From assembly GCA_021325025.1 (NCBI GenBank), contig JAJPHZ010000002.1, positions 1 to 49,293 of the forward strand: DNA of 49,293 bases, in the 5' to 3' direction. The DNA is from Pseudomonadota bacterium. Lineage in GTDB: Bacteria > Desulfobacterota > Binatia > Binatales > Binataceae. The notes beneath the pieces were generated by a model. It was not told where the DNA came from and did not search any database. It saw only the letters and a program-made list of their open reading frames with translations. The position numbers were made by a program, and so were the translations under genes. Shown piece by piece: positions 25,201 to 40,505 of this stretch; positions within the stretch are counted from its first letter, which is position 1, and the number at the start of each line of letters is the position of its first letter.

Positions 25201-25238
25201 CGTCTGGTCTCCCACACGCAGGCCGAAAAACTATTGTA

Positions 25239-25263
25239 ATTATACGGCTAACAAATATGTTAG
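25239..25263 (-). promoter_or_regulatory. TATAAT promoter with operator-like palindrome in the spacer
   Basis: On the minus strand a perfect TATAAT (25244-25239) is preceded, four bases upstream, by the inverted repeat CTAACA-TATT-TGTTAG (25263-25248), which fills the space where the -35/-10 spacer would be. The site is strongly AT-rich against the local GC background. It lies about 40 bases upstream of the ATG at 25200. A repressor bound there would block RNA polymerase; the TetR protein of the downstream unit is the obvious candidate. No good -35 hexamer is visible, which would fit activator dependence or a weak promoter. Confidence 0.55.
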
Positions 25264-25309
25264 TCCGCGTCAAACTGGCCACGAATGCCGTGGCCCGCCA
25301 GGTTTGAAG

Positions 25310-26500
25310 TCAATCCTTGGGCAAGCCGAGGCTGCGCTCGCCGATGATGTTGCGTTGAATCTCGCTGGTGCCCCCGGCGATTCTGAATTGCAGGCAGCTA
25401 ATCACCCTGCTCTGCCAGCGCGGCGCCTCCGGCACCGCGGGCAGCGCGTCGCCCAGTTGTGCGTACGGACCCAGCAGTTCGGTGGCAAGATGCGCGATGC
25501 GCACTCCCAACTCCGAGCCGAACAGCTTCAGCATCGAGCCCTCGGGTCCCGGCGGCAGACCGCGCAGTTGGCGCGTCAGCGACCGCAGCTGGGTGTACTT
25601 CGCAGCCTGACATTCGATCGCAAGCGCGGTGAGGCGCTGACGCACCCACGGCACCTGCCATGCCGGCTGTCCCTGCACTTCGACACGCTGGGCCAGTTCG
25701 ATCAGCGCGCGAACGGCTTCGGCCTGCCCTTCGCCGCCGACAAAGGCGCGCTCGTAAGACAGCGTGGTCATCGCCACGCGCCAGCCTTCGTTCTTGGGAC
25801 CGACCAGGTTTTCGCGCGGCACTTCAACGTCATCGAAGAAGACTTCGTTGAAATGGGCGTGGCCGCTGGCCACGACCAGCGGACGCACTGTGACGCCCTT
25901 GCTCTTCATGTCGAGCAACAGGTAGCTGATGCCCTTGTGCTTGGGCGCGGTGGGGTCGGTGCGCGCCAGCAGGAACATCATGTCGGCGTACTGCGCGGCA
26001 GAGGTCCAGATCTTCTGCCCGTTGAGCACGAAGTAATCGCCCTTGTCCTCGGCGCGGGTCTGGATCGCAGCCAGGTCGGAGCCGGCGCCGGGCTCCGAGT
26101 AGCCCTGACACCAGATGTCCTCGCCGCTCAGGATGCGCCTGACGTAGCGGCGCTTCTGCTCCTCGGTGCCGTACTGGATAAGCGTGGGTCCGCACATCCC
26201 GATTCCCAGGTAGCCGGGCACGATCGGGGCGCGGGCGCGCGCATACTCCTCGTTGTAGATAATTTGTTCAATCAGTCCGGCGCCGCGGCCGCCGTATTCT
26301 TTGGGCCAGGCGATCCCGGCCCATCCGGCCGCGTACAGCTTCGCTTGCCACGCGCGGCGCTTTTCGAAGACCTCGCGCGAGGCGGCGACTCGCTCGTCCA
26401 TCGCGTCGTAAACGCGCAGCTGCGGATCGAGGTTAGCCTCAAGCCACCGCCGCAGCTCCATCCGGAACGCTTCCTGTTCGGGGGTAAACGAAAAGTCCAT
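25310..26500 (-). CDS. Acyl-CoA dehydrogenase (tandem copy 2)
   Basis: A 396-residue acyl-CoA dehydrogenase. The helical N-domain starts FSFTPEQEAFRMELRRWLE; the beta domain has CQGYSEPGAGSDLAAIQTRAE and GQKIWTSAAQYAD for FAD and substrate; the C-domain ends IAGGTSEIQRNIIGERSLGL. The position of the MCAD base (Glu376 in YEGTS) is Gly here, so the catalytic base is probably Glu in SYERAF, the helix-G position used by isovaleryl- and long-chain enzymes. ATG 26500 has CAGGA 6 bases upstream. It follows the paralog at 26541 by 40 bases. It introduces the alpha,beta double bond into an acyl-CoA and passes electrons to ETF; chain type unknown. Confidence 0.92.
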   Translation of the reverse strand: MDFSFTPEQEAFRMELRRWLEANLDPQLRVYDAMDERVAASREVFEKRRAWQAKLYAAGWAGIAWPKEYGGRGAGLIEQIIYNEEYARARAPIVPGYLGIGMCGPTLIQYGTEEQKRRYVRRILSGEDIWCQGYSEPGAGSDLAAIQTRAEDKGDYFVLNGQKIWTSAAQYADMMFLLARTDPTAPKHKGISYLLLDMKSKGVTVRPLVVASGHAHFNEVFFDDVEVPRENLVGPKNEGWRVAMTTLSYERAFVGGEGQAEAVRALIELAQRVEVQGQPAWQVPWVRQRLTALAIECQAAKYTQLRSLTRQLRGLPPGPEGSMLKLFGSELGVRIAHLATELLGPYAQLGDALPAVPEAPRWQSRVISCLQFRIAGGTSEIQRNIIGERSLGLPKD

Positions 26501-26540
26501 GTCCAATCCTGCCTTGTCAATGCCTTGAGCGCCGCTGCGG

Positions 26541-27725
26541 CTACCTGGGCAGCTTCAGCGTACGCTCGCCGATGATGTTGCGCTGAATCTCGCTGGTGCC
26601 GCCGGCGATCGTGTACTGGCGGGAGTTGATCACCCGATTCTGCCATCGCGGCGCATCTGCCAGCGCCGGCATCGGCTGGGCGAGCTGCGCGTATGGCCCC
26701 AGCATCTCGGCGGCGAAAAACGCGATGCGCACGCCCAACTCCGTGCCGAACAGTTTCAGCATCGAGCCCTCCGGTCCAGGCGGCTGCCCCTTGAGCTGAC
26801 GCGTCAGCGAACGCAGACGCGTGTATTTGGCGGCCCGCGACTCGATCGCCAAATGCGCGATGCGCTGGCGCACCCAGTCATGCTCCCACGCCGGCCGTCC
26901 GTCGATTTGATGGCGATGGGCGAGGTCCACCAGGCCGTGAATTTGCGAATCGTAACCGCCGCCGCTGGCGCCGCGCTCGTACGACAGGGTGGTCATCGCC
27001 ACCTTCCATCCCTGGTTGGCGGGCCCGACCAGGTTTTCCTTCGGTACCTCGACGTCCTCGAAGAACACCTGGTTGAAATGGGCATGGCCGGCGGCGGTCA
27101 CCAGCGGGCGCACCTCCACGCCCTTGCTCCTCATGTCGAGCAGCAGGTAGCTGATGCCCAGATGGCGGGGCGCACCGGGTTCGGTGCGCGCCAGCAGATA
27201 CATCCAGTCGGCGTACTGGGCGGCCGAGGTCCAGACCTTCTGCCCGTTGAGCACGAAGTAATCGCCCTTGTCTTCGGCCCGGGTCTGGACGGCGGCCAAA
27301 TCGGAGCCCGCGGCGGGTTCTGAATAGCCCTGGCACCAGATGTCCTCGCCGCTCAGAATACGCTTTAGAAAGCGGCGGCGCTGTTCGTCGCTGCCCCATT
27401 GCGCAATGGTCGGTCCGCACATGCTGATTCCCGAATAGCCGGGCAGGATCGGCGCCCGCGCGCGGCCGTACTCTTCGTTGAAGATGACCTGCTCGAGCAG
27501 GCCCGCGCCACGCCCGCCGTACTCTTTGGGCCAACCGATGCCGACCCATCCCGCGGCGTACATCTTGGCCTGCCAGGCGCGCCGGCGCTCGAAAATTTCG
27601 CGGCTGGCTGGCACCCAATCATCCACCGGATCGTCGATGCGCAGTTCGGGCGGCAGATTTTCGGCAAGCCAGCGCCGTACTTGCATACGGAATGCTTCCT
27701 GCTCCGGCGTGTATGAAAAGTCCAT
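26541..27725 (-). CDS. Acyl-CoA dehydrogenase (tandem copy 1)
   Basis: A 394-residue acyl-CoA dehydrogenase, strongly similar to the next gene. It starts MDFSYTPEQEAFRMQVRRWL and has CQGYSEPAAGSDLAAVQTRAE, GQKVWTSAAQYADW, the helix-G candidate base in TLSYERG, and a C-terminal IAGGTSEIQRNIIGERTL that again has Gly where MCAD has its Glu. The ATG at 27725 has AAGGA 7 bases upstream; the frame continues far upstream but without family sequence. The pair could form homotetramers or a mixed complex. It diverges from the F420-type LLM gene at 27864 with 138 bases between them. Confidence 0.92.
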   Translation of the reverse strand: MDFSYTPEQEAFRMQVRRWLAENLPPELRIDDPVDDWVPASREIFERRRAWQAKMYAAGWVGIGWPKEYGGRGAGLLEQVIFNEEYGRARAPILPGYSGISMCGPTIAQWGSDEQRRRFLKRILSGEDIWCQGYSEPAAGSDLAAVQTRAEDKGDYFVLNGQKVWTSAAQYADWMYLLARTEPGAPRHLGISYLLLDMRSKGVEVRPLVTAAGHAHFNQVFFEDVEVPKENLVGPANQGWKVAMTTLSYERGASGGGYDSQIHGLVDLAHRHQIDGRPAWEHDWVRQRIAHLAIESRAAKYTRLRSLTRQLKGQPPGPEGSMLKLFGTELGVRIAFFAAEMLGPYAQLAQPMPALADAPRWQNRVINSRQYTIAGGTSEIQRNIIGERTLKLPR

Positions 27726-27863
27726 CGCGTCTTCCTTGCACCCGCGCCTGGGTGCGATCTTTTCTTGATTGGCGTGCGGCTGGCAAGCGGAGTGAAAGTA
27801 TAGGATAAGGCGCTGCGTGCGGATGCCGCCGGTTACATCGCCCGAGCGCCGAAGGAGGATGCG

Positions 27864-28691
27864 ATGAAGTTCGCCGTTGCGATTCGCAACATGGGAGCGC
27901 AGTCCACGATGCCCACCATCAAGGCCTGCGCGCTGGCCGCGGAGCGGCTGGGCTACGACGCGCTGTTCGTATCCGACCATCTGTGCATCCCGCCCGATCA
28001 GACCGAAGGCTCAGGCGGGCGCTACCTCGACGTGCTGGCGACGCTGGCCTTTTTGGCCGGCACCACGGCGCGCATCCGGCTGGGCATTTCGGTCCTGGTG
28101 CTGCCCTATCGTCCCGCGGTGTACACGGCCAAGCTGGTCGCGACCATCCAGGAGTTGTCGGGGGAGCGGATGATCCTGGGCGTCGGCAGCGGCTGGATGG
28201 GTGCGGAGTTCGAGGCGCTGGGCGTGGACTTCAAGCGGCGCGGCGCGATCACGACCGAGACGCTCCGCGTCATCCGCCATCTGTTTGCGCACGAGGCCGA
28301 ACCCTACCACGGCAAGTTGGTAAGTTTTCCCTCCTTTGTGTTTAAACCGCGTCCCAAGTGTCCGCCGATTTGGATCGGCGGCAACGGGCCCGCTGCGATT
28401 GCGCGCGTGATGGAGTTCGGCGACGGATGGCATCCGATGCTGCGTGCCGGCGAGTTGAAACCCGCGGTGGAGCGCGTCAAGCGCGAAACCGCCGCGCGCG
28501 GCAGGACGGATCTCGAAATCGTGGTCCGCTCGGGATTCCCGCTCGACGATCCGGTCCGCGCGCGCGAACGCCTGGACGGATACAAGAACGCCGGCGCCAG
28601 CTACGTCATCCTGGATTTGGGCCGCTACGCCGACGCCGACCAGTTCATGCGCGAGGCGGAAAGCTTCATGGCCCGGGTGGCACGGCCGTAG
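27864..28691 (+). CDS. LLM-class, probably F420-dependent oxidoreductase (TIGR03619-like)
   Basis: A 275-residue luciferase-like protein starting MKFAVAIRNMGAQST, with AAGGAGG 6 bases before the ATG. Hallmarks are YDALFVSDHLCIP, RLGISVLVLPYRPAVYTAK, ELSGERMILGVGSGWMGAEFEALG and PPIWIGGNGPAAIARV. This compact form with the GVGSGW segment belongs to the group usually assigned to coenzyme F420, like the protein at 6913-7788 and unlike the 'EHHFTG' group. It converges on the CaiB-like gene with only 7 bases between stops. F420 use is family-based inference; no F420 biosynthesis gene is in the window. Confidence 0.88.
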   Translation: MKFAVAIRNMGAQSTMPTIKACALAAERLGYDALFVSDHLCIPPDQTEGSGGRYLDVLATLAFLAGTTARIRLGISVLVLPYRPAVYTAKLVATIQELSGERMILGVGSGWMGAEFEALGVDFKRRGAITTETLRVIRHLFAHEAEPYHGKLVSFPSFVFKPRPKCPPIWIGGNGPAAIARVMEFGDGWHPMLRAGELKPAVERVKRETAARGRTDLEIVVRSGFPLDDPVRARERLDGYKNAGASYVILDLGRYADADQFMREAESFMARVARP

Positions 28692-28698
28692 GCTGCCC

Positions 28699-29943
28699 TC
28701 AGATCACGCCAGCGGCGCGCAGTTGCGCGATCTGGGCCTCGCTCAGGCCCAGCACCCGCCCGTAGACGAGGTCGTTGTCGTGGCCGATTTTCACCGAGCC
28801 GCGCCAGATTTTACCCGGCGTGCGGCTGAACCTGGGCACGATGCCCATTCCCTTGACGGTGCGGCCCAGTTGTTCGTCGCGCCATTCGACATGCACGCCG
28901 CGCGCCTGGTAATGCGGGTCGGCGGCCATCAGGTCGCTGGACATGATGCGCGAGCACGGCACCTGCGCCTCGTTCATCGCCTGCACCACCTGCTCGATGG
29001 TGCGTTCGTTGATCCACCCGCGCAGTATCGCGTCGAACTCGATTCCCTCGACCGATTCCAGGTTGACCCGCGCGCTCTGCCATTTGGGATCGTCGCCGTC
29101 GAGTCCGATCACCCGGCATAACCGTTTGTAGACATCCGCTACGGCTCCGATGACGACCCATCCGTCCCTGGCGGCGAACGTGTCCAGCGGCTGGAAACCC
29201 TGCGCACGGTTGCCGCTGCGCTCGCGTACCAGCCCCTGTTCGAAGTATTCCATCATCGTGCCGCCCAGCGTGCGATGAACCGCTTCGTACTGGGCCAGAT
29301 CGATCGACTGCCCCTGACCGGTGCTGCGCGCGTAAGTCAGCCCCGCCAGCGACGACCACAACGTGAACAGCGCAGTGATGTAATCGGCCGTCCACGGCGC
29401 GGCGCGGGTGGGCGGGTCGGGGTCGGGAAAGCCGGTCTGATACATCATGCCGCCGAAGGCCTGCCCCACAATGTCGTAGGAGGCGCGCTGAATGTAATGC
29501 GGGTCGCCGGTCTGCCCGTAGCCGGAAACGTGGGTGATTACCAGTTTGGGATTAACCTTGAAGATGGTCTCATCGTCCAGGCCGAATTTGGGATAGGTGC
29601 CGGGCTTGGAGCTTTCCATCCAGATGTCGGCGCGCGCCGCCAGCTTTAGGAACAGCTCGCGGCCCTGCGGCTTGGACAGGTCCAGCGATACGCAGAACAT
29701 GTTGCGCCGCTCCTGGATCCAGTTGGTTGCCACCGGCGGGCTGCCGTCGGCCGTCTCCAGGCGGATACCCAACGTGCGCCATCCGCTGTCGCCCACGCCT
29801 GGCCGCTCGATTTGAATCACCTCCGCCCCCATTTCGGAGGCCAGCTCGGCCGCCCATGGCTGAGCGATCAAAGTGCCGCTGGAGATTATCCGCACACCCT
29901 GCAGCGGGCCGAAGCGTTCCGGAACCAGGTTGTCGATGCTCAT
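28699..29943 (-). CDS. CaiB-like class III CoA-transferase
   Basis: A 414-residue CoA-transferase whose layout follows CaiB (crotonobetainyl-CoA:carnitine CoA-transferase): FGPLQGVRIISSG, GAEVIQIERPG, NPKLVITHVSGYGQTGD, PWTADYITALF (the Asp of TADY matches the aspartyl-CoA nucleophile), TGQGQSIDLAQYE and PGKIWRG near the C-terminus. It therefore differs from the BaiF-like protein at 5548-6762. GGAG lies about 12 bases before the ATG at 29943. Carnitine itself is not implied; other Cai proteins are absent, so an unknown carboxylate CoA-transfer is more likely. Divergent from the FHA gene. Confidence 0.88.
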   Translation of the reverse strand: MSIDNLVPERFGPLQGVRIISSGTLIAQPWAAELASEMGAEVIQIERPGVGDSGWRTLGIRLETADGSPPVATNWIQERRNMFCVSLDLSKPQGRELFLKLAARADIWMESSKPGTYPKFGLDDETIFKVNPKLVITHVSGYGQTGDPHYIQRASYDIVGQAFGGMMYQTGFPDPDPPTRAAPWTADYITALFTLWSSLAGLTYARSTGQGQSIDLAQYEAVHRTLGGTMMEYFEQGLVRERSGNRAQGFQPLDTFAARDGWVVIGAVADVYKRLCRVIGLDGDDPKWQSARVNLESVEGIEFDAILRGWINERTIEQVVQAMNEAQVPCSRIMSSDLMAADPHYQARGVHVEWRDEQLGRTVKGMGIVPRFSRTPGKIWRGSVKIGHDNDLVYGRVLGLSEAQIAQLRAAGVI

Positions 29944-30169
29944 CGTCGTTCGCGCTCCATTTCTCCCCCAAAGCCGCGGTCACCATCATCGTCCGCCTAA
30001 TCCGGTCCGTCCACCATTAACAGGATGTTGAGCGTGGATCTCAAGGTAAACTTCATGGTCGAGGCTTCTCAACAGGGCTGCGGAGGGCTGCTTGTTCCTG
30101 TTTACGGGCAGGATATGATGTTTTAAAAGTTGCGCAACCGCACATGGGGCACGCGCAGTCGATTTGGAG

Positions 30170-31426
30170 ATGGACGGGGTTATCAACCGACGCGATCTGA
30201 CCTTCAAAAGCCTGGCCGGACTGCTGGGCGGGGCCGTGGGATGGCTGCCAGTGGAAATCGCCACCCACGGTCATTCGCTCACCGAAGCACCTTCCGCCGC
30301 CGCATTTTACCTTAATTTCGGCGCATTGGCGCTGCTGTCAGGTCTGATTGGCGGACTGATCAACGCCGCACAGGCCCAGGTGCTGGAACTGACGCCGCTG
30401 GTCAAGCGGCGCTTCATGCAGGGATTTATCATCTGCGCCCTGCTCTCTCTGCCGTCGACTTACTATTCCAACGTGGCCTTCGCCGCGATCCTCAACGCCG
30501 GCGGATGGCGCATTGGTCAGGCCGGCTCCATCGCCTACCTGATTTTCGGACGGCTGGTGGGATGGAGCTTGATGGGAGTGATGCTCGGCGCCGGCGTCGG
30601 TATTGCAACGTTTTCGGCGCCCAACATCTTCAAGGGCGCGGCGGGCGGACTGGCCGGCGGCTTCTTAGGCGGCGTGCTGTTCGACGCCATCAGCGCGCTG
30701 TCGGGCGGCGGACTGGCCTCGCGCCTGTTCGGGCTGAGCGCCATCGGATTGATGATCGGGCTGTTCATCGGCCTGGTTCAGGAACTGACCAAGGTGGCGT
30801 GGCTGACGGTGGAGGCGGGACGTCTGCGGGGACGCGAGTACCGGCTGGAAAAGGCGCTGGCAATTGTCGGTCGCGCCGAGGAGTGCGACGTGGGGCTGTT
30901 CGGCGATCCCGCGGTGGCGGCGCGTCATGCCACGATCGAGCGCAAGGGCGCCGATTTCACCATCAAGGACCTGACGCGCGAGCCTGGCACTCTCGTCAAC
31001 GGACAGCGCATCGAGAGCGCGCCGCTGCATCCGGGCGACCTGATCACGATCGGCGGCTACCAGGTACGCTTCAACATGCGCAGCGCGGCGCCCGCTCGCA
31101 GCGCCGCCCCATCGCTGCCCGCGGCGTATCCGGAGGCAGCGGCGGGTGCCGGCCCGTGCCTGATCGATGCGGACGGGCGGCGGCTGGAGTTGCGCCGCGA
31201 CGCACCTACCACCATCGGCCGCTCGCTGGATAACGATCTGGTGCTGCCCTATCAGTCCATCTCGCGCCATCATGCCAGAATTGCACAGGTCGGCGGCGCC
31301 TTTCGCCTGCACGACCTGGGCAGCCAAAACGGCTGCTTCGTGGACGGCAAACGGGTCAGCGAGGCGCCGCTGCGCGACGGTGATATGATTAAGCTTGGTG
31401 ACGCGCAGTTCAAATTCCGGGCCTGA
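30170..31426 (+). CDS. Multi-pass membrane protein with two C-terminal FHA domains
   Basis: A 418-residue protein. Roughly residues 15-220 hold five or six hydrophobic, Gly-rich membrane segments. FHA1 (about 223-311) has IVGRAEECDV, ARHATI and LVNGQRI; FHA2 (about 329-417) has TIGRSLDNDLVLP, ISRHHARI and GSQNGCFVDG. FHA2 keeps the Gly-Arg, Ser-x-x-His and Asn-Gly residues that bind phosphothreonine; FHA1 has Ala in place of the binding Ser. The start is uncertain: ATG 30170 has GGAG directly abutting it and a TTG lies two codons earlier. Stop is 7 bases before the zinc-ribbon gene, then the kinase. Likely a membrane receiver of kinase-phosphorylated partners. Confidence 0.85.
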   Translation: MDGVINRRDLTFKSLAGLLGGAVGWLPVEIATHGHSLTEAPSAAAFYLNFGALALLSGLIGGLINAAQAQVLELTPLVKRRFMQGFIICALLSLPSTYYSNVAFAAILNAGGWRIGQAGSIAYLIFGRLVGWSLMGVMLGAGVGIATFSAPNIFKGAAGGLAGGFLGGVLFDAISALSGGGLASRLFGLSAIGLMIGLFIGLVQELTKVAWLTVEAGRLRGREYRLEKALAIVGRAEECDVGLFGDPAVAARHATIERKGADFTIKDLTREPGTLVNGQRIESAPLHPGDLITIGGYQVRFNMRSAAPARSAAPSLPAAYPEAAAGAGPCLIDADGRRLELRRDAPTTIGRSLDNDLVLPYQSISRHHARIAQVGGAFRLHDLGSQNGCFVDGKRVSEAPLRDGDMIKLGDAQFKFRA

Positions 31427-31433
31427 CGCGGCG

Positions 31434-31802
31434 ATGGCGGCTCCACGCTTTTGTTCCAGTTGCGGCCATCCGGTGGTGGTTGGCGACGCGCGCTTTTGCA
31501 AGGACTGCGGCGCGGCGCTGGCTACCGGCCTGCGCTTCAAGCACGACCTGAACTGGAATCCGTGGTTGGCCGCCTCGCTCAGTTTGATACCGGGGCTGGG
31601 CCAATTCTATAAAGGAGAGCGCTGGCAAGCCGGGTTGTGGTTTGTTGGCGTTGTGATTCTTTACGCGGCGGGACCGGTCGGTCCGCTGGTGCATCTGATC
31701 TGCATCGCCAACGCGGCGCTGGCCGGCGCGATCGATTTTCCCGCCGCGCGCCTGCCGGCGGCCTCCGCGCGCGGTGCCAATAGCCTGGCGAACCGGCCAT
31801 GA
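31434..31802 (+). CDS. Zinc-ribbon membrane protein
   Basis: A 122-residue protein. It opens with a zinc ribbon (CSSCGHPVVVGDARFCKDCG), followed by a short linker, then PWLAASLSLIPGLGQFYKGE, a TM2/DUF5683-like motif, and two hydrophobic segments up to residue 105. The start at 31434 gives a protein that begins just before the first Cys; an upstream GTG at 31395 would overlap the FHA gene by 32 bases. Its stop overlaps the kinase start (ATGA at 31799-31802), so translation is coupled. A similar ribbon occurs in the kinase (residues 301-318). Probable scaffold or regulator in the same membrane complex. Confidence 0.75.
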   Translation: MAAPRFCSSCGHPVVVGDARFCKDCGAALATGLRFKHDLNWNPWLAASLSLIPGLGQFYKGERWQAGLWFVGVVILYAAGPVGPLVHLICIANAALAGAIDFPAARLPAASARGANSLANRP

Positions 31803-33304
31803 TTGCTCCCAACACCGTCATCGGTAACCGCTATCGTGTGACGCGGCTGTTAGGCGGCGGCGGCATGAAGATGGTCTATCTGGCCGAGGACATGCGTCTG
31901 GCCGATCGGCCCTGCGCGTTGGCCGAGATGGTCGACGCGATCAGCAACCCCGACTTGCAACAGCAGGCCTCGGCCAGTTTTCAGCGCGAAGCCGACATGC
32001 TGGCCGAACTCGATCACCAGCACATTCCCCGCATCTACGACCGCTTCAGCGAGCAGAACCGCCATTACCTGGTGATGGAATACGTTGCCGGCCAGACGCT
32101 GGAGGAGCAGCTCAAGGAGGCCGGCGGCAAGCTGCCCCAGGAGCGTGTGATCGATATCGCGCTGCAGGTGCTCGACACCCTGGAGTACCTGCACCATCGC
32201 GAGCCGCCGGTCATCTACCGCGACCTCAAGCCCTCCAACATCATGATCACGCCTGGCGGGCAGGTAAAGCTCATCGACTTCGGTATCGCGCGCCATTTCC
32301 AACCGCTGAGCAGCGCCACAATGGTGGGAACGCAGGGCTACGCGCCGCCCGAGCAGTATCGCGGCAAGGTCGAAACGCGCTCGGATCTCTACGCGCTGGG
32401 CGCAACGATGCATCACGCGCTGTCGGGCCGCGATCCGACTACCGAGCCGCCCTTCAGCTTTCCCGTGCTACGCAAGTTTTGCCCCGAACTCAACGCCGCG
32501 CTGGCCGATTTGGTCAGCGACGCACTGGCCTATGACGTCGAGCAGCGCATCCGCGACGTCGGCGAGATGAAGCGCCGGCTGCTCGCCATCAAAAACGGCG
32601 CGGCGGCGGCGGCCAACGGCGCTCAGGCCGCCGCGCCGGCCGGTCAGCCGCAGTTGAAACTGCCGCTGAAGACGCCGCCGGCTGCCGCCTCCGCGTCGGC
32701 TCCTACGCTGCTGACCAACGAGATCGCCTGTCCCGCCTGCACGCGGGCGATCCCCGGGGATTCGCGCTTTTGCAGTTATTGCGCCGCCGACCTGCGCAAC
32801 GTGCTGGAACTCTTCCAGGTGGTCAGCGATCCCAACGCGCAAACCATCACGCTCAGCCAGCCTTCGCCGGGACATCCCCGCACCGCTGCCGCGCCGCCCA
32901 TCGGCCGTCCCTGGCACCGGCGCGGACGCCGCTCGCCGCTCCTCCTCACAGTGCTGGTAGTGGTCCTGCTGGCGGTTGCGGTCGTCAAGTTGCTGCTGTT
33001 TCTGTCCGATGTGGTCTCCGCGATCCAGTCGGGCGCCAGCGCGCCGCCGGTCCCGCCCGTCGCCCGTTCTGACAACCCCTGGGGCGAGTCCGAAGCCGAC
33101 CCTGTCGATCCGCTTCGAACCACGATGCTGCGCCAGATGCTCGATGCGCAGGGCTACGGCGCGGTCCGCTTCAAACTGAGCGGCTCGACGATCTCATTGT
33201 GGGGCAAGGTGCGCAGCGACGCCGACCGTGAAACGATCGAAAACGAAGCCTCGATGATCACCGGCGCGATGAATATCGAGGATCATCTGCAGCTCGAAGA
33301 GTAA
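31799..33304 (+). CDS. Ser/Thr protein kinase with relocated lysine, zinc ribbon, TM and BON-like domain
   Basis: A 501-residue protein. Kinase domain residues 10-255: P-loop GGGGMKMVY (19-27), alpha-C Glu64 in READML, YRDLKPSN (catalytic Asp132), IDFGIAR (Asp150) and YAPPEQY. The lysine of the VAIK motif is Ala42 (CALAEM), while Lys24 (codon AAG, 31868-31870) occupies the third Gly of GxGxxG, the position of the catalytic lysine in WNK kinases. All other catalytic residues are kept. Then come an Ala/Pro linker, a zinc ribbon (C301, C304, C315, C318), one TM helix (about 370-393) and a BON-like domain outside (about 430-501). It likely phosphorylates Ser/Thr on partners read by the FHA protein. 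A pseudokinase is the alternative. Confidence 0.9.
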   Translation: MIAPNTVIGNRYRVTRLLGGGGMKMVYLAEDMRLADRPCALAEMVDAISNPDLQQQASASFQREADMLAELDHQHIPRIYDRFSEQNRHYLVMEYVAGQTLEEQLKEAGGKLPQERVIDIALQVLDTLEYLHHREPPVIYRDLKPSNIMITPGGQVKLIDFGIARHFQPLSSATMVGTQGYAPPEQYRGKVETRSDLYALGATMHHALSGRDPTTEPPFSFPVLRKFCPELNAALADLVSDALAYDVEQRIRDVGEMKRRLLAIKNGAAAAANGAQAAAPAGQPQLKLPLKTPPAAASASAPTLLTNEIACPACTRAIPGDSRFCSYCAADLRNVLELFQVVSDPNAQTITLSQPSPGHPRTAAAPPIGRPWHRRGRRSPLLLTVLVVVLLAVAVVKLLLFLSDVVSAIQSGASAPPVPPVARSDNPWGESEADPVDPLRTTMLRQMLDAQGYGAVRFKLSGSTISLWGKVRSDADRETIENEASMITGAMNIEDHLQLEE

Positions 33305-33323
33305 GGCGTTGCGGCCCAAGCGC

Positions 33324-34448
33324 TCACCATTGCAGGACCCCGGCCATGCGCCGCTTGTGCCATTTCGGATCACCCAGGTAATTGAACAGCGTGCGCGACA
33401 ACTGGGTATGCGGCGTCAGGCCGTATTCGTGGACCGAGCCGATGCCGGCGTGGACTTCGTGCGCGGCGTTGCACGCCTCCATGTGCGCCTCGGCGGTGAC
33501 CGCCTTGGCCAGATGCACGCTGTCGGCGGCGGGCCGCCCGGCGTCTAACTTCCACAGCGCTTCGTAGGTCGTCCAGCGGGCGGCATCCAGATGGTTGACC
33601 AGGCGCACGATGTGGTCCTGCACACGTTGAAAGCGGCCAATCGGAACGCCGAACTGGATGCGGGTGTTGCTGTATTCCACCGACATCTCGAACACCGCCT
33701 GACAACTGCCGACCTGAAACGCGCATAGCACCGCAATCGCGCGTTCCATGGCGCGCGTCAGCGCCGCCCATCCGCTATTCTCGCGGCCGCCCAGCAGTGC
33801 ATCGGCGGGAACCTCGACGCGCTCGAACCTGACCTCCGCCTGCCAGCTCAGCAGTCCCGGCAGATTGCGAGCCGAAACGCCTTTGGCCTGCTTGTCAACA
33901 ATCAGCAGGCTCACACCATCGGCGCCGGGGCCGGTGCGCACGGCCACGATCAGATGCGAGGCGGCGACCGCGTCGCTGACAAATAGTTTGACGCCGTCGA
34001 GTACGTAGCGATCGCCCACGCGGCGCGGTTCCATTGCCACGCCCTGCGGCCCCCACGACCGATGCGGCTCGGTGATCGCGACGCTAAAGATTTGCCGCCC
34101 CGACGCGATCTCCGGCAGGATCCGCCGGCGCTGGGCGTCGTCGCCCGCCTCCATCACGGTCAGCGCGCTGAGCACGCCGGAACTGAAGAACGGTCCGGGC
34201 AGCGGTCCGCGCCCGAACTCCTCGTACAGCGCGGCGGCATCGGTCAACGTCGCGCCGCCCCCGCCGTAGGGGGTGGGAATCAGCAATCCCAGCCATCCCA
34301 ACTGCGCAATCGTGCTCCATATCTGCGGCTCATACCCGCTTTCCGATTTTTGCAGCGCCACGACCGCGGCTTTCGGCATCCGCCGCTGCATAAACGTCCG
34401 CGCACTTTGCGCCAGCATCCGCTGATGTTCGTTATACGAGAGATCCAT
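33324..34448 (-). CDS. Acyl-CoA dehydrogenase (beta-like subunit of a pair)
   Basis: A 374-residue acyl-CoA dehydrogenase family protein, shorter and more divergent than its partner. It begins MDLSYNEHQRMLAQSARTFM, with PTPYGGGGATL, ITEPHRSWGPQGVAMEP in the FAD/substrate loop and AMERAIAVL at helix G. The end (EVHAGIGSVHEYGLTPHTQL) lacks the GTSEIQR motif that normally follows. It lies 12 bases after the full-length enzyme at 34461-35690, the arrangement seen for two-subunit (alpha2beta2) steroid acyl-CoA dehydrogenases such as ChsE1/ChsE2. It converges on the kinase gene with 19 bases between stops. A GTGGGG stretch precedes the ATG. Confidence 0.88.
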   Translation of the reverse strand: MDLSYNEHQRMLAQSARTFMQRRMPKAAVVALQKSESGYEPQIWSTIAQLGWLGLLIPTPYGGGGATLTDAAALYEEFGRGPLPGPFFSSGVLSALTVMEAGDDAQRRRILPEIASGRQIFSVAITEPHRSWGPQGVAMEPRRVGDRYVLDGVKLFVSDAVAASHLIVAVRTGPGADGVSLLIVDKQAKGVSARNLPGLLSWQAEVRFERVEVPADALLGGRENSGWAALTRAMERAIAVLCAFQVGSCQAVFEMSVEYSNTRIQFGVPIGRFQRVQDHIVRLVNHLDAARWTTYEALWKLDAGRPAADSVHLAKAVTAEAHMEACNAAHEVHAGIGSVHEYGLTPHTQLSRTLFNYLGDPKWHKRRMAGVLQW

Positions 34449-34460
34449 GGCGCCCCACCC

Positions 34461-35690
34461 TCATAAGACCTTGCCGGCGGCTTCACGAGTGGTGCGGCCG
34501 ATGCCGATGCGGCGCGCCATGCTGACCTTCTGGATGTCGGCGGTGCCGCCCGGATGCATCAGGACGATGCCGTTGCGCTGCTGGGCGTCGAGGAAGCCCT
34601 CCTCCGAGCCCCAAACCGGATCCGTGGTCAAGGCCGCGGGGCCAACCACTTGTAGGATTTGCTGCGTCATCCACAGTCCCGCCTGCTTCATGTATAGCGA
34701 CAACTGCGGTCCCTCGTAGGACCTCGGCTGCCTGGCGTAGGTCAGCCAGAAGTTGCGCAGGCCGAACAGCCGTCCCACCTGGCTTCTGATGTAGATGTCG
34801 GCCAGCGTGTCACGCACGTCGGGGTCCTCGACCAACGGGCGGCCGTCGCGCTGGGTGGTACGGCAGTAATCCAGTAGGCTGTGCCAGAAGCGATTGCGTC
34901 CGATATGTCCGCCGCCGCCGTGCTCCAGTTCCAGATGGGTGGACGCAACGCGCCATCCGTTGTTCTCTCCGCCGACCAGGCATGAGGCCGGCACGCGTAC
35001 GTCCTCGAAGAAGATAGTGTTCTTCTGTCCGCTGCGCGCGCTGCTCTCGCCCGCCCCCAGCAAATCCATCGGCTGCACGGTAATCCCCGGCAGGCGCGCA
35101 TCGACCATGAACCAGCTCAGGTTTTTGTGCCGCTCGCCGTTGGGGTCGGTGACCGCCAGCGTCCACATCCAGTCGGTGCCGTTGTCGCTGCCGATAAACA
35201 CCTTCTGGCCGTTGAGCACATAATGATCGCCGTCGCGAATCGCGCGCATCCGCACTCCCGCCAAATCCGAGCCGGCCTCGGGCTCCGACAGCAGTTGCCA
35301 CACGCGCACGTCGCCGTGATAGATGGGCGGCAGCAGCGTTTTGCGCTGCTCCTCCGTGCCCCACACCAGGATGGTGGGCGCGCCCAGCGTGCCGCCGCTG
35401 TTGTAGTAGGGTGGCAGCGACAAGTCGAGACGGTCGGCCTCTTCTTCCAGCACGATTGCGTGATCGACGTCCAACCCGCCGCCACCGTACTCTTTGGGTG
35501 CCATCGGATACAGCCATCCCTTCGCGCCCAGCTTGCGCCCCAGTTCGCGGCGCATGCGGTAGTTGGCCGCCGACTCCGCGTCGGTGGTGGGCCGCCGCGT
35601 GATCCCCGCCGGCACGTTGGCCTCCAACCACGCACGCACCTCGGCCCGAAAGCGCTGCTGCTCCTCGCTGTAGGTCACTTCGAAGTCCAT
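34461..35690 (-). CDS. Acyl-CoA dehydrogenase (alpha-like subunit of a pair)
   Basis: A 409-residue acyl-CoA dehydrogenase. It starts MDFEVTYSEEQQRFRAEVRA, has PKEYGGGGLDVDHAIV, WQLLSEPEAGSDLAGVRMRA and NGQKVFIGSDNGTDWMW, and ends MHPGGTADIQKVSMARRIGI. The MCAD base position is Gly (PGGT), so catalysis would depend on another acid or on the partner subunit. AAGGG lies 7 bases before the ATG at 35690; the frame extends 10 codons upstream without family sequence. Its stop is 12 bases from the next acyl-CoA dehydrogenase start, and it diverges from the LLM gene at 35918. Confidence 0.9.
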   Translation of the reverse strand: MDFEVTYSEEQQRFRAEVRAWLEANVPAGITRRPTTDAESAANYRMRRELGRKLGAKGWLYPMAPKEYGGGGLDVDHAIVLEEEADRLDLSLPPYYNSGGTLGAPTILVWGTEEQRKTLLPPIYHGDVRVWQLLSEPEAGSDLAGVRMRAIRDGDHYVLNGQKVFIGSDNGTDWMWTLAVTDPNGERHKNLSWFMVDARLPGITVQPMDLLGAGESSARSGQKNTIFFEDVRVPASCLVGGENNGWRVASTHLELEHGGGGHIGRNRFWHSLLDYCRTTQRDGRPLVEDPDVRDTLADIYIRSQVGRLFGLRNFWLTYARQPRSYEGPQLSLYMKQAGLWMTQQILQVVGPAALTTDPVWGSEEGFLDAQQRNGIVLMHPGGTADIQKVSMARRIGIGRTTREAAGKVL

Positions 35691-35917
35691 GTCGCGCCCT
35701 TCCCGGCCATGGCTTGGCACGCCGCGGCCGCCGGCGCCGCGGCGGATCGATGGTGTGACGGGCGCATCGTAGTTCAGCGCCCAACAAACCTCAAACCGCG
35801 CGCACTTCCGTCATCGGCGCGCCGCGGCTACAGTGTCGGCCAGATGTGCCGCGCGGTCGGCCGCCGCCTGCCGGGCGCTGCTTTGGCGATCGAAACCACA
35901 AGCGAGAGTCGCAACAG

Positions 35918-37036
35918 ATGAAAGCAGGAATTGCGCTTACCCTGGCCGGACTGGGTCTGGATCGTCCCGACCATCAACTCTACCAGGAGGAGTTGAAGCT
36001 GGCCGACATGGCTGAGCCGCTGGGCTTCGATTCGATCTGGAGCCTGGAGCACCATTTCACCGGTTACAACATGGTGCCCAATCCGACCCAGATGCTGAGT
36101 TACTTCGCTGCGCGCACCAGCCGTGTACAGCTCGGCACGGCGGTAATCGTGCTGCCCTGGCACAACCCGGTGCGGGTCGCCGAAGACATCGCGCTGCTCG
36201 ACGTGCTGTCGGGCGGGCGGACGATTTTCGTCTTTGGCCGCGGCACGGCGACGGTCGAGTTCGAGCGCCTGGATAGCCCGCAGGAGCAGTCGCGCCAGCG
36301 CTTTGCTGAAGCCGCCACGATTATCCGCAAGGCGCTGACGCAGGAGGTGTTCGAGCACGACGGCCAGTTTTGGAAGGTCCCGCCGACCACGATCCGTCCG
36401 CGCCCCATCTCCCATCCCGAGCGCCGCTTCTATGCCTCCACCGTCAGCCCCGAGTCATCCGAGATGATGGCGCAAATGGGCTTCGGCGTGATGATCATCG
36501 CGCAGAGCACGTGGGAGAAGGCGGCTGACGACTACCATCGCTACTGCGACGTTGCGCGCGCCAACGGCTACGGCGTCAAGCCGCCGATCGCGCTGATGAC
36601 GGTGCTGATGGCGGAAGATGCGGCCGAGGCGCGTGACTTGGGCGACATCTACATCGCCAAGGGTTTCGAGCACGTCGACCTGCATTACGGGCTGTCCGAC
36701 GGACACCTGGGCAAGGTCAAGGGCTATGAGTTCTGGGCCAAGATGGCCAAAACCTACTCGCGGTTGAATTCCCCCGAGGAGCGCGCCCGGGCGGTGGAGT
36801 TCTTCAAGAACCTGCAGATGGTAGGGACGCCGGCGCAGGTGCTGGAAAAGTTTCGCCACGTGTTCAGTCTGACCGGGTTGGGGCACGCCGCTGCGCAGTT
36901 CCTGCCCGGCGCAATGCCCTACCATTTGGGCGAGCGCAGCCTCAAGCTGTTCGCGGAGAAGGTGTTGCCGGTCCTCCAGCGCGACCCGGCCTTTCAGCCC
37001 AGGGAAGAGCCCGAGGCGGCCGGCGCCCGCGCCTGA
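35918..37036 (+). CDS. LLM-class flavin-dependent monooxygenase ('EHHFTG' group)
   Basis: A 372-residue luciferase-like enzyme with SLEHHFTGYNMVPNP, TAVIVLPWHNPVRVAED, VLSGGRTIFVFGRGTATVEF and STVSPESSEMMAQMG. The second Gly of the usual FGFGRG is Val here (FVFGRG). The C-terminal part has MVGTPAQVLEKF and VLPVLQRDPAF, as in the other three members of this group. The start at ATG 35918 is taken from the conserved MKxG opening; the upstream frame is not conserved and the ribosome site (GCGAGAG) is modest. It ends 32 bases before the convergent terminator. Likely oxygenates a substrate processed by the adjacent acyl-CoA dehydrogenase pair. Confidence 0.9.
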   Translation: MKAGIALTLAGLGLDRPDHQLYQEELKLADMAEPLGFDSIWSLEHHFTGYNMVPNPTQMLSYFAARTSRVQLGTAVIVLPWHNPVRVAEDIALLDVLSGGRTIFVFGRGTATVEFERLDSPQEQSRQRFAEAATIIRKALTQEVFEHDGQFWKVPPTTIRPRPISHPERRFYASTVSPESSEMMAQMGFGVMIIAQSTWEKAADDYHRYCDVARANGYGVKPPIALMTVLMAEDAAEARDLGDIYIAKGFEHVDLHYGLSDGHLGKVKGYEFWAKMAKTYSRLNSPEERARAVEFFKNLQMVGTPAQVLEKFRHVFSLTGLGHAAAQFLPGAMPYHLGERSLKLFAEKVLPVLQRDPAFQPREEPEAAGARA

Positions 37037-37054
37037 CGCGCCGCCGGGCTGCGC

Positions 37055-37099
37055 AAAAAAAAAGAACCAAGAGGCGGGCCGCGATGCGGACCGCCTCTT
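37055..37099 (-). terminator. Intrinsic terminator for the secreted-protein gene
   Basis: AAGAGGCGG (37069-37077) pairs with CCGCCTCTT (37091-37099), with an inner CCGC/GCGG extension closing on a GAT loop. On the minus strand the stem is followed by GGTTC and nine T's (37063-37055), a standard intrinsic terminator downstream of the gene ending at 37152. It may also stop the convergent LLM gene. Confidence 0.85.
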
Positions 37100-37151
37100 C
37101 ACTATCGCCTTAAAACGTTCTGCCGCTCAGCCGACTCGGCCGGCATCGCCC

Positions 37152-38372
37152 TCAATGCACCGTCACGGTCACGGTGGTGGTCGTGCGGCCGTAGGCGTTG
37201 GTGGAATACAAAGTGTAAGTGGTGGTGGCCGATGGAACGACGCTGACACTGGTACCGCGTACCGGGCCTAGGGCGGGCGAGATGAGGTTGTAATCGGCGC
37301 CGCTGGTGCTCCAGCCGAGCGTCACCGGCTGGCCCTTGGCCACTGATGACGGATTGGCGGTAAAACTCAGAATGGTGGGCGCGGGTCCGCTCGGCACGTT
37401 GCCGGGAGTGTAGATCGTGCCCATTGCCACCACGTCGAAACTGGCCGCGGTGATCTTTTTGAGATTGCTCAGGTCGCTGTTGTTCCAGCGGTTGTCGGGC
37501 GCGCCGCTGATGAAGATCCCGCTGCCGTTGTCAGCCAGGATCATCCCGTATTTCTTGAGCGCGGTGAGAAGCACCCGGTTGGCCGCGGAGTAGCCCGAAA
37601 TGTCGAAACTCGCCTTAAGCCGCAGCCGCGTGCCCATCGGCGGCGCACTCGTGCTGGTGTCGGTCGACGCCCAATGAGAGGCGGGCGCCACAAAGGCCTG
37701 ACGCGTGGCCGGCACCGTGAAGCGCAGCGCATGGTTGATCGCACCCGCCGCGACTTCATCGTAACGCACCAGTCCCGGGAAGATCGGCAGCCCGGCCGCG
37801 TCTGCCGAAGTCCAGGTGTAGGGCCGCTGCTGGCTGATCGTCATGTCCCACACCGCGGCGGAATCCGCCTTCCAGCTTCCGTTTTTCTGCAGATAGGCAT
37901 GATACAGCTCGTAGAGCCAGCAGCCGTCCTTCTCCAGCACCAGTACGTGCCGGTCGCCGTTGCCGGGCTTGGGATAACCCTCAATCAGCGCATTCTGTGG
38001 AATCGGCATCGGCCCCGGATCGCTCTCGTCGGGATAAAGGCCGAAGATGATCGGCACCTTGGCCTGACTGCCCGCCACCACCTGGTAGGGAATGCCGATG
38101 GTCTGGCGGTTGTAGTAGCCCGCCCCGAAGTCGGGATGCAGTGTGGTAGCGGGGCCGATGAAATTGATGATGTTGGTGGAGTTGGGATCGACCGGCGCGG
38201 ATGAAACGTCGGCGTTCCACAGGCTGTTGGTGCCCTGGAAGGGAACGAAACCATTGAGGCTTGTGAGCTGGCCGACCGTCATCCCCGCGCAGGTGCCGGC
38301 CTGCGCAACCGCCGAGCCGCGCAGCGCCAGCAGCACCGCCAGGGTGATGAGAGAGATTTTCACGGGCCGCAC
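37152..38372 (-). CDS. Secreted protein with C-terminal Ig-like domain
   Basis: A 406-residue exported protein. Residues 1-24 are a signal peptide (VKISLITLAVLLALRGSAVAQ). The body (about 40-310) contains NSLWNADVSSAPVDPNS, DESDPGPMPIPQNALIEG, GDRHVLVLEKDGCWLYELY and RLKASFDISGY, a family I recall as uncharacterised and common in Acidobacteria. Residues about 322-406 form an Ig-like domain: PTILSFTANPSSVAKGQPVT ... SATTTYTLYSTN. The GTG start at 38372 has GGGAGG 7 bases upstream. A TTGACA promoter lies upstream and a strong terminator follows, so it is a single-gene unit. No function can be named; a carbohydrate- or surface-related role is only a guess. Confidence 0.82.
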   Translation of the reverse strand: MRPVKISLITLAVLLALRGSAVAQAGTCAGMTVGQLTSLNGFVPFQGTNSLWNADVSSAPVDPNSTNIINFIGPATTLHPDFGAGYYNRQTIGIPYQVVAGSQAKVPIIFGLYPDESDPGPMPIPQNALIEGYPKPGNGDRHVLVLEKDGCWLYELYHAYLQKNGSWKADSAAVWDMTISQQRPYTWTSADAAGLPIFPGLVRYDEVAAGAINHALRFTVPATRQAFVAPASHWASTDTSTSAPPMGTRLRLKASFDISGYSAANRVLLTALKKYGMILADNGSGIFISGAPDNRWNNSDLSNLKKITAASFDVVAMGTIYTPGNVPSGPAPTILSFTANPSSVAKGQPVTLGWSTSGADYNLISPALGPVRGTSVSVVPSATTTYTLYSTNAYGRTTTTVTVTVH

Positions 38373-38393
38373 GCTCTTTCCTCCCGTAGTGGA

Positions 38394-38423
38394 ATTTAAC
38401 TACATGTTGATAATTAATGTCAA
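38394..38423 (-). promoter_or_regulatory. Candidate sigma-70 promoter for the secreted-protein gene
   Basis: On the minus strand a perfect TTGACA (38423-38418) is followed after 18 bases by TTAAAT (38399-38394), in an AT-rich patch. It ends about 20 bases before the GTG at 38372, so the 5' leader would be short. Confidence 0.5.
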
Positions 38424-38591
38424 ATTCTCCTACGCTATACAACAGTCCATAGTTTTGCGCAGTTTATTTGAAAAATAGGCAGCCCATCACCCAAGCTGGC
38501 AGTTCTGCCGCTTTGCACCGCAAGCCGAAGCGTTCTAAGCTGCGGACCGGCGCATCTGCCCGGGCGGCGGCGCCGGGAAGGATAAAGCGGG

Positions 38592-39239
38592 ATGGCTTTG
38601 AAGGTTGTCGGCGCCGGGTTCGGACGAACCGGTACGCTGTCGCTGAAGAACGCGCTGGAAAAACTCGGCTTCGGACCCTGCTATCACATGTTCGAAGTGC
38701 TGGAGCGGCCCGACCACATCGCGCTGTGGCATCGGTTAGCCTTCGGCGGCGCGGTCGATTGGGACCTGCTGTTCAGGGATTTCCAAGCCACCGTGGACTG
38801 GCCGGCGGCGCGCTACTGGCGCGAGCTGGCGGCGCATTATCCCGACGCCAAGGTGCTGCTGTCCTTGCGCGACCCGGAGTCATGGTACAAGAGCATGACC
38901 GATACCATCTACCAGGGGCTTAAGATGCCCATACCTGACGGCATCGCCGCCGCACGCCGCCAGCAGATGGAGATGGCGCGCAAGGTCGTGCTCGAAGATA
39001 CCTTTGACGGGCGCTTCGAGGACAAGGCACACGCGCTCGAGGTGTACAACCGGCACAACCGGGAAGTACAGCGCGCCATCGCACCGGGCCGCCTGCTGGT
39101 GTTCGACGCCAAACAGGGATGGGAGCCGCTATGCCGTTTTCTGGGCGTGGCGGTGCCTGATGAACCCTTCCCCCATCTCAACGACACCGCCGCGATTCAG
39201 GCGATGATGAAGCAGATGCGCCAGTCGGGCCGCCCGTAA
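38592..39239 (+). CDS. Sulfotransferase-family protein (Sulfotransfer_4-like)
   Basis: A 215-residue P-loop protein. GAGFGRTGTLSLKNALEKLG at residues 7-26 is the PAPS 5'-phosphosulfate loop of the short sulfotransferase family, and KVLLSLRDPESWYKSM is the 3'-phosphate-binding motif. FPHLNDTAAI near the C-terminus is also family-typical. The ATG at 38592 has GGAAGGA 9 bases upstream. It begins a plus-strand run with the alcohol dehydrogenase 18 bases downstream, so the two are likely co-transcribed. Substrate is unknown; in bacteria these proteins often stand beside lipid or xenobiotic genes, and PAPS use is inferred from the motifs. Confidence 0.85.
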   Translation: MALKVVGAGFGRTGTLSLKNALEKLGFGPCYHMFEVLERPDHIALWHRLAFGGAVDWDLLFRDFQATVDWPAARYWRELAAHYPDAKVLLSLRDPESWYKSMTDTIYQGLKMPIPDGIAAARRQQMEMARKVVLEDTFDGRFEDKAHALEVYNRHNREVQRAIAPGRLLVFDAKQGWEPLCRFLGVAVPDEPFPHLNDTAAIQAMMKQMRQSGRP

Positions 39240-39257
39240 TCGGGCAGGGGAACAGTC

Positions 39258-40343
39258 ATGAAGGCAGCCGTATTCCGCAAAGTGGGACAGCCGCTGGCGA
39301 TCGAAGAGGTCGCGGTCGACGCGCCGGGCCCCAATGAAGTGCTCATCCGCACCGCCGCCTGCGGCGTCTGCCACAGCGACCTACATATTGTTCAGGGCGT
39401 CCTGCCATGGCCGCCGGGCGCGGTGATGGGGCACGAGGCGGCGGGCACCGTGACCGCGGTGGGCAGCGCGGTCAGCTACGTCAAGCCCGGCGACCGCGTG
39501 GTCGCCTGCCCATCGCCGTTTTGCGGTAAATGCTCCCAGTGCCTGACCGGCCATCCCCATCTATGCGCCGGGCGCGGCACCTTGCGCCGCCGCCGCAACC
39601 AGCCGGCGCGTTTATCGGCCGGCGGCGAAGCGCTGACCCAGTTCGCCGACATCGGCGGATACGCCGAAGAACTGCTGCTGCATGAAAACGCAGTGGTCAA
39701 GGTGCCCGACGCGATGCCGCTGGATCGCGCGGCACTGATCGGATGCGGCGTGACCACCGGGATGGGCGCGGTGCTCAACACCGCCCGGGTCCATACCGGC
39801 GCCAGTGTGGCGATCTTCGGCGCCGGCGGCGTCGGGCTGGCCGCGATTCAGGCCGCGCGGCTGGCGGGCGCCGCCAAGATCATCGCCGTCGATCTGCTGG
39901 AGAACAAGCTGGCCGCGGCGCGCAAGATGGGCGCCACGCACACTGTCGATGCGAGTTCGTCGGATCCAGTCGCCGAAATTAAGAACATCACCGGCGGCGG
40001 TGCGGACTACGCCTTCGAGGTGATTGGAATTGCCAGGGTGGTCGAACAGGCGCTGGCCTGCGTGGGGCCGGGTGGAACGGCGGTCAGCGTCGGCGTAGTG
40101 CCGCCCACCGATCCCATCAAGGTGCAGTGGAACGACTTGTTCCAGGAGAAGAAACTGACCGGCAGCCAGATGGGCTCCAACCGCTTCCGTATCGACATCC
40201 CCACCTACGTCGATTTCTACTTGCAGGGGCGGCTCAACCTCGACGACATGGTGACGCGCCGCGTCAAGCTCGAGGACATCAACGAGGCGTTCCGCGCGAT
40301 GACCGCCGGGGAAGTGCTGCGTTCGGTCGTGGTGTTCGAGTAA
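39258..40343 (+). CDS. Zinc-dependent alcohol dehydrogenase (MDR family, class III-like)
   Basis: A 361-residue medium-chain dehydrogenase. Catalytic zinc ligands are in CGVCHSDLH and GHEAAGTV; the structural zinc lobe is CPSPFCGKCSQCLTGHPHLC; the NAD fold is IFGAGGVGLAAIQAARLAGA followed by IAVDLLENKL, whose Asp indicates NAD preference. The variable segment RLSAGGEALTQFADIGGYAE is like class III and mycothiol- or glutathione-linked enzymes, but the cofactor thiol cannot be read from sequence. GGGGAA lies about 7 bases before the ATG. It oxidises an alcohol or thiol adduct to aldehyde or thioester. Followed by a hairpin and the alpha/beta hydrolase. Confidence 0.92.
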   Translation: MKAAVFRKVGQPLAIEEVAVDAPGPNEVLIRTAACGVCHSDLHIVQGVLPWPPGAVMGHEAAGTVTAVGSAVSYVKPGDRVVACPSPFCGKCSQCLTGHPHLCAGRGTLRRRRNQPARLSAGGEALTQFADIGGYAEELLLHENAVVKVPDAMPLDRAALIGCGVTTGMGAVLNTARVHTGASVAIFGAGGVGLAAIQAARLAGAAKIIAVDLLENKLAAARKMGATHTVDASSSDPVAEIKNITGGGADYAFEVIGIARVVEQALACVGPGGTAVSVGVVPPTDPIKVQWNDLFQEKKLTGSQMGSNRFRIDIPTYVDFYLQGRLNLDDMVTRRVKLEDINEAFRAMTAGEVLRSVVVFE

Positions 40344-40350
40344 GACGACG

Positions 40351-40375
40351 GCGGCGCCGCGCATCGCGCGGCGCC
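40351..40375. terminator. GC hairpin after the alcohol dehydrogenase gene
   Basis: CGGCGCCGCGC (40351-40361) and GCGCGGCGCCG (40365-40375) form an 11-bp stem on a 3-base loop, 8 bases after the stop at 40343. There is no U tract, so it may be a weak terminator or an RNA-stabilising hairpin. Confidence 0.5.
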
Positions 40376-40505
40376 GGCCAACCGCCCGGTGCGGGACTGT
40401 TCATCCTCAAGCCAAATGCGCTAATAGATTGAGTAAACCGCCGCTGAACGCGCATTACCTGGCGGCTCGGCGGGGCGGAATACGACAGAGTTGCGGAAGG
40501 TCTAA

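Follow-up and report, generated by a model that had tools for sequence, protein, structure and literature searches.

The window analysed here, 49,293 nucleotides of contig JAJPHZ010000002.1 (assembly GCA_021325025.1, family Binataceae, class Binatia), encodes a Ser/Thr-type protein kinase whose catalytic lysine appears to have changed place. At the position of the β3 lysine (the VAIK lysine) it has Ala42, and a lysine, Lys24, stands at the last glycine position of the G-loop, as in the eukaryotic WNK kinases. We give a probability of roughly 0.8 to the reading that this kinase belongs to a Binataceae-wide family in which the G-loop lysine likely replaces the β3 lysine as in WNK, that it is predicted to be active, and that it is not expected to sense chloride at the WNK site. 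The same exchange is found in a second bacterial kinase family.

The lysine exchange

The gene and the catalytic elements on which the argument depends are these.

31799..33304, forward strand: Ser/Thr kinase gene, 501 aa, with a Pfam Pkinase match; it comprises a kinase domain, a zinc-ribbon-like stretch, one predicted transmembrane helix and a weakly BON-like C-terminus
31832..32443, forward strand: kinase domain core, residues 12-215 (Pfam); the predicted helices extend to residue 273
31868..31870, forward strand: Lys24 codon AAG, last G-loop glycine position (= PKA G55, WNK1 K233)
31922..31924, forward strand: Ala42 codon GCC, in place of the β3 lysine (= PKA K72)
31988..31990, forward strand: Glu64 codon GAA, the αC glutamate, kept
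32222..32239, forward strand: Asp142-Asn147 of YRDLKPSN, kept (Asp142 codon, 32222-32224)
32276..32284, forward strand: Asp160-Phe161-Gly162, the DFG motif (Asp160 codon, 32276-32278)

By profile score the protein belongs to the Pkinase superfamily (PF00069, 135.5 bits, above the curated cut-off of 31.7). Its sequence reads LGGGGMKMVY...RPCALAEM, with GGGGMKMVY as G-loop and CALAEM as β3 motif, and both the loop lysine and the loss of the β3 lysine stand as an earlier note on this DNA had described them. That note had also listed Glu64, the catalytic Asp, the DFG Asp and a PPE motif as intact. All four are present, the last as GYAPPE C-terminal of the activation loop, but the numbers Asp132 and Asp150 given there were off by ten, the residues being D142 and D160. 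Lys24 is the sole lysine within residues 1-105. K24 and A42 were assigned to PKA G55 and K72 by way of the GxGxFG and VAIK motifs, and the equivalence of these positions with those of WNK is taken from PMC1821047 and PMC5130182. In an AlphaFold2 model with a mean predicted local distance difference test score (pLDDT) of 87.6, K24 is the first residue of predicted β2 (24-31), A42 falls within predicted β3 (37-44) and Glu64 lies in the predicted helix 51-69. A single-sequence AlphaFold2 model was set aside, its mean pLDDT being only 38.7.

Conservation and mutual exclusion

The set of close homologues consisted of the query and the best 120 of 7995 passing matches (8000 candidates scored, no motif filter), and counts out of 121 rows refer to it throughout. 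Lys24 is found in 120 of the 120 rows covering its column, P0060 being truncated there, and Ala42 in all 121, so that the canonical VAIK lysine is absent. E64, K144, N147, D160, F161 and G162 are each invariant (121/121), as are the activation-loop residues T174 and T178; D142 is present in 120, and the canonical αC Glu, Asp, Asn and DFG are thus in place. In 47 of the rows the lysine at 24 is the only one within residues 1-96. The codons themselves vary. Among 43 distinct DNA stretches, from a search that admitted only Lys codons at 24 and only Ala codons at 42, Lys24 is spelled AAG in 32 and AAA in 11, and Ala42 is spelled GCC in 32, GCT in 5, GCG in 5 and GCA in 1. Since this variation is synonymous, the two residues have been kept by selection and not merely by recent copying. 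The earlier judgement that a sequencing error is unlikely is borne out by these counts, and K24 proves to be conserved among the homologues.

Does the loss of one lysine always go with the gain of the other? Among 432 distinct kinase domains, picked by a catalytic-loop and DFG pattern (which protein P0141 failed), 368 carry a lysine in the loop but not at β3, where the residue is Ala (356), Ser (8), Gly (3) or Met (1). In another 60 the lysine is at β3 and the loop position holds G, A or S; the remaining 4 are truncated within the loop. Apart from these 4, none of the 432 motif-bearing domains has both lysines and none has neither. Across the 262 columns from 8 to 269, and leaving aside columns 24 and 42, which define the groups, none passed the thresholds applied for a parallel difference between each swap family and its canonical comparators (256 swap against 29 canonical rows; 109 against 21 in the second family described below).

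Distribution in Binataceae

A DNA pattern, MKxVY...CA[hydrophobic]xEM, in which the β3 residue was left free, matched 35 stretches in species-representative genomes. Of these, 33 are kinases, every one with Ala at β3 (33/33); the remaining two, L030 and L040, are non-kinases and were dismissed as chance matches. In 297 genomes sampled from the phylum, the pattern occurred in 6 of 6 genomes of the kinase's own family, in 0 of 6 from other families of the class and in 0 of the 285 others. Within Binataceae it was found in 35 of 41 genomes, with an Ala codon at β3 in all. Five of the six pattern-negative genomes still carry K24 and A42, in kinases spelled CALAEV or SALAEM, which brings the pair to 40 of 41 genomes; the sixth genome is 53% complete and yielded only pieces of canonical and degenerate kinases. 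The exchange is fixed in a Binataceae-wide kinase family.

Other kinases with the exchange were seen alongside this family. A kinase-PDZ-BON protein from the same genome (L113:1019-3466, contig C43) has a swap of another type, GGGGQKQMY...CALAEL, present in its protein record and in all seven relatives (P0242-P0249). A divergent swap kinase, GGGGMKRVY...CALAEM, with a Cys-rich N-terminal stretch, lies outside the FHA operon in L009 and L114. On a contig labelled Acidobacteriota, a swap kinase (CAVAEM) is split across two overlapping frames (L038:3774-5136); a frameshift and misbinning are both possible.

A second family and the origins of the exchange

A protein search of 58 genomes of the class found kinases reading GEGAKKRVHLA...VAIA and GEGARKRVYLA...VALG. 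With one such kinase as query, 7868 of 7997 candidates passed, and the best 120 were listed. Among these matches, most are fusions of a kinase with an AAA ATPase and a cyclase, many of them named class 3 adenylate cyclase by their source, and the named sources are Deltaproteobacteria, Myxococcota, Chloroflexota/Dehalococcoidia and Binatia. The Pfam accessions concerned, PF13191 and PF00211, we take to be the AAA ATPase and the cyclase. Of the 120 listed proteins, 113 have Lys at the G55 position together with Ala (99), Ser (7), Gly (6) or Met (1) at β3, and all 113 retain E, D, K, N and DFG. The remaining 7 are of the canonical type. No cultured host of this family was found; among the plasmid matches only the first-ranked, from Gemmatirosa, was read, and it carries a canonical kinase (GGMATVY...VAIK).

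The trees for the tests of a single origin were built without columns 23, 24 and 42, and each topology test compared two trees under one model. In the first tree, of 66 rows, 4 label changes were required, and the long row L086 grouped with L009; removal of the long rows L086, L089, L094, L099, L100 and L101 gave a tree of 60 rows. A single clade of all loop-lysine kinases was rejected by the approximately unbiased (AU) test, with p-AU 0.0002 for 60 rows and 0.0001 for 55. Since it is rejected in both trees, it is very likely that the swap originated two or more times in bacteria. The earlier note had offered either an independent swap or a lineage-specific bacterial family. The family does extend across Binataceae, as described above, but the alternative was drawn too narrowly, for a second, independent family exists.

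Within Binatia, the order of events is less settled. In the best 55-row tree, canonical Binatia kinases with CAIKEM are nested among loop-lysine rows, with support of 98/86 and 98/92. This nesting would fit a reversed history, in which the loop lysine is ancestral and the canonical CAIKEM kinases later regained the β3 lysine, and POMK tolerates a return of its lysine to the original place (PMC10211241). Against this, a single clade of Binatia loop-lysine rows is compatible with the data (p-AU 0.31, and 0.23 in the 55-row tree), the outgroup hangs on a long branch, and the tree program issued a warning about long branches that meet. We regard the reversal as possible and somewhat unlikely. Equally tentative is the wider proposal that the catalytic lysine is a movable part, which would have gone from β3 to the G-loop at least two times (in the Binatia FHA-operon kinases and in the multi-phylum kinase-AAA-cyclase fusions), always all-or-none, and would have jumped back once, in the CAIKEM kinases.

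Acquisition of a WNK gene from a eukaryote by horizontal transfer was considered as well, and set aside as extremely improbable. The kinase matches bacterial kinases in the PDB best by sequence; the trees contained no WNK rows. In the Foldseek list, WNK1 comes at rank 39, after several other eukaryotic kinases, and thus the fold shows no special tie to WNK.

Is the kinase active?

The swap affects the same positions as in WNK, has become fixed in the lineage and leaves the other catalytic residues in place. An active kinase is therefore the best reading, one in which these enzymes would use the loop lysine, convergently with WNK. In such a kinase, K24 would likely pair with Glu64 and with the phosphates of ATP, in place of the β3 lysine, and the DFG motif (not DLG) would be expected to support chemistry of the ordinary kind. 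ATP binding through K24 and catalysis are thus predicted from sequence. In PKA, the double substitution K72A+G55K gives about 400% of wild-type activity, and K72M+G55K and K72H+G55K are inactive alone and reach about 2% when coexpressed with PDK1 (PMC5130182).

What would be expected of a pseudokinase? The VAIK lysine is one of three standard markers by which active kinases are told from dead ones, and by the rule used for pseudokinases, its loss alone qualifies where activity data are lacking (PMC12599244). The domain would then likely be inactive or bind nucleotide only, and serve as a scaffold in the operon, described below, that it shares with an FHA-domain protein. The remaining catalytic residues are however retained in 120 to 121 of the 121 rows, and among the 428 domains that have the catalytic-loop and DFG motifs and could be read, the lysine at 42 is never lost without one at 24. 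Degenerate kinase domains from the same bacterial family look different: of 13 loci scanned, such a domain was read in L110, L111 and L123, and all three have lost the catalytic-loop and DFG motifs. A pseudokinase is consequently an unlikely explanation.

Several points weigh against an active kinase in an FHA operon. One homologue, P0105, carries Tyr in place of D142. The sequence sets were found from swap-kinase queries and are hence enriched for the swap, and the pattern behind the 432 domains leaves out degenerate kinases, so the statement that none is without both lysines holds for motif-bearing domains. Conserved residues alone are also compatible with a regulated or a very slow kinase. 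Three swap loci, L009, L015 and L038, have no operon, with neither an FHA nor a zinc-ribbon homologue, and the link between kinase and FHA protein comes from neighbourhood alone.

The genome also contains a 697-aa open frame (contig C38:176819-178150) with a PP2C match and a partial kinase match, flanked by two canonical kinases. Its relatives L110, L111 and L123 have the catalytic loop VNDICPxSV and have lost DFG. Judged by these motifs, the frame is likely a true pseudokinase.

Chloride sensing

In WNK1, chloride is bound at the DLG region, and both L369F and the double substitution L369F + L371F make the enzyme insensitive to it (PMC7606576, PMC13397483). The DFG phenylalanine, Phe161 here, occupies the position of WNK1 Leu369 in all 121 rows and in all 113 swap members of the second family (best 120 matches of each search). 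The position of WNK1 L371 is Ile163 in all 121 rows and Leu in the second family, among the matches listed. With Phe at the position of the DLG leucine, the kinase would not be expected to sense chloride at the WNK site. The earlier note had contrasted the DFG of this kinase with the DLG of WNK, and DFGI is indeed invariant in the 121 rows; the same residues speak against its suggestion of ion regulation. One could still suppose a WNK-like anion sensor, with the vacant β3 position likely forming an inhibitory chloride pocket, for the shift of the lysine to subdomain I may be what allows chloride binding in WNKs (PMC7606576). Set against the invariant Phe161 and Ile163, where WNK1 has Leu369 and Leu371, this is very improbable.

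Operon and genomic context

Two genes precede the kinase gene, and three further elements lie in its C-terminal half.

30164..31426, forward strand: upstream gene, protein whose N-terminal half is hydrophobic and precedes two FHA domains (FHA 135.7 bits, 2 stretches)
31395..31802, forward strand: upstream gene, small zinc-ribbon-like, likely membrane protein (sub-cut-off Pfam zinc-ribbon matches)
32717..32797, forward strand: zinc-ribbon-like stretch of the kinase, residues 307-333, CPAC...CSYC (weak sub-cut-off Pfam matches)
32939..32995, forward strand: predicted transmembrane helix of the kinase, residues 381-399 (Kyte-Doolittle mean 3.09)
33128..33295, forward strand: weak BON-like domain of the kinase, residues 444-499 (17.5 bits against a cut-off of 27)

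The BON match of homologue P0012, at 23.6 bits, is likewise under the cut-off. The zinc-ribbon gene and the kinase gene share 4 bases (ATGA), the stop of the first overlapping the start of the second. The operon is conserved: of 33 kinase loci, 30 contain a homologue of the FHA protein and 27 one of the zinc-ribbon protein; L012, L016 and L032 have no detectable zinc-ribbon protein. FHA domains bind phosphothreonine. Therefore, an active threonine kinase in this operon is the simplest reading, with the FHA protein as its likely partner. From the gene neighbourhood, the kinase may signal by phosphothreonine to the adjacent FHA-domain protein, and it would be anchored in the membrane through residues 381-399. 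Across the genome there are three matches to PP2C phosphatases and a total of seven to Pkinase, a figure that includes canonical sisters.

The region of the window around the operon (24046-41297) encodes luciferase-like monooxygenases, acyl-CoA dehydrogenases, a family III CoA-transferase, a sulfotransferase and an alcohol dehydrogenase; the kinase has no obvious connection to these metabolic genes. The reverse strand holds a frame of 406 aa at 37152-38372; its N-terminus looks signal-like by eye, and Pfam gave no match for it at E 0.001.

Comparison with known systems

In the literature searched, the swap was not found described for bacterial Ser/Thr kinases, and it may be listed in the bacterial kinase atlas behind PMC12599244; a search on Binatota kinases found nothing. 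Bacterial kinases with the swap would be misannotated as pseudokinases. Natural sister enzymes, at about 54-56% identity, make the order and the reversibility of the two changes testable.

Kinases of the PknB/StkP type share fold and motifs with this one and are its best PDB matches by both sequence and structure, but they retain the VAIK lysine, and the residue at their loop position is not a lysine. In the bacterial pseudokinases ActPs1-3, GLW, CP1, DYD and DLHK, the β3 lysine is absent in several, and most of these families also alter the catalytic loop, DFG or the αC Glu, though CP1 may lose one motif (PMC12599244). The motifs degraded there are intact here, which argues against placing this kinase in most of those families, in a comparison made by description and not by sequence, and the part of that paper surveyed describes no G-loop lysine for those families.

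Relocated charges are known from other kinases. CAK-chloro has its positive charge shifted from position 72 to 55 (PMC1821047), but as Arg55 with Met72 and Phe91, where this kinase has Lys24, Ala42 and Glu64, and thus it does not belong to that family. POMK is active with a lysine that migrated to β2, yet it also lacks the canonical Asp motifs and is a eukaryotic glycan kinase (PMC10211241). The highly active PKA K72A+G55K carries the same two substitutions as the present kinase; there they were made in the laboratory, whereas here they are natural and fixed.

A further parallel is with WNK1-4, described in 2007 as the only functional family of eukaryotic-type kinases without K72 (PMC1821047). 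Shared with them are a lysine at the last G-loop glycine, predicted to lie in β2, the loss of the β3 lysine and the retention of the αC Glu. The differences are an Ala and not a Cys at β3, DFG and not DLG, the bacterial host and, likely, the lack of a chloride site. Without the leucine of the WNK chloride site, the move of the lysine would also be uncoupled from ion sensing, and the occurrence of one and the same exchange in two families of bacteria would make it a repeatable evolutionary route and not a eukaryotic oddity.
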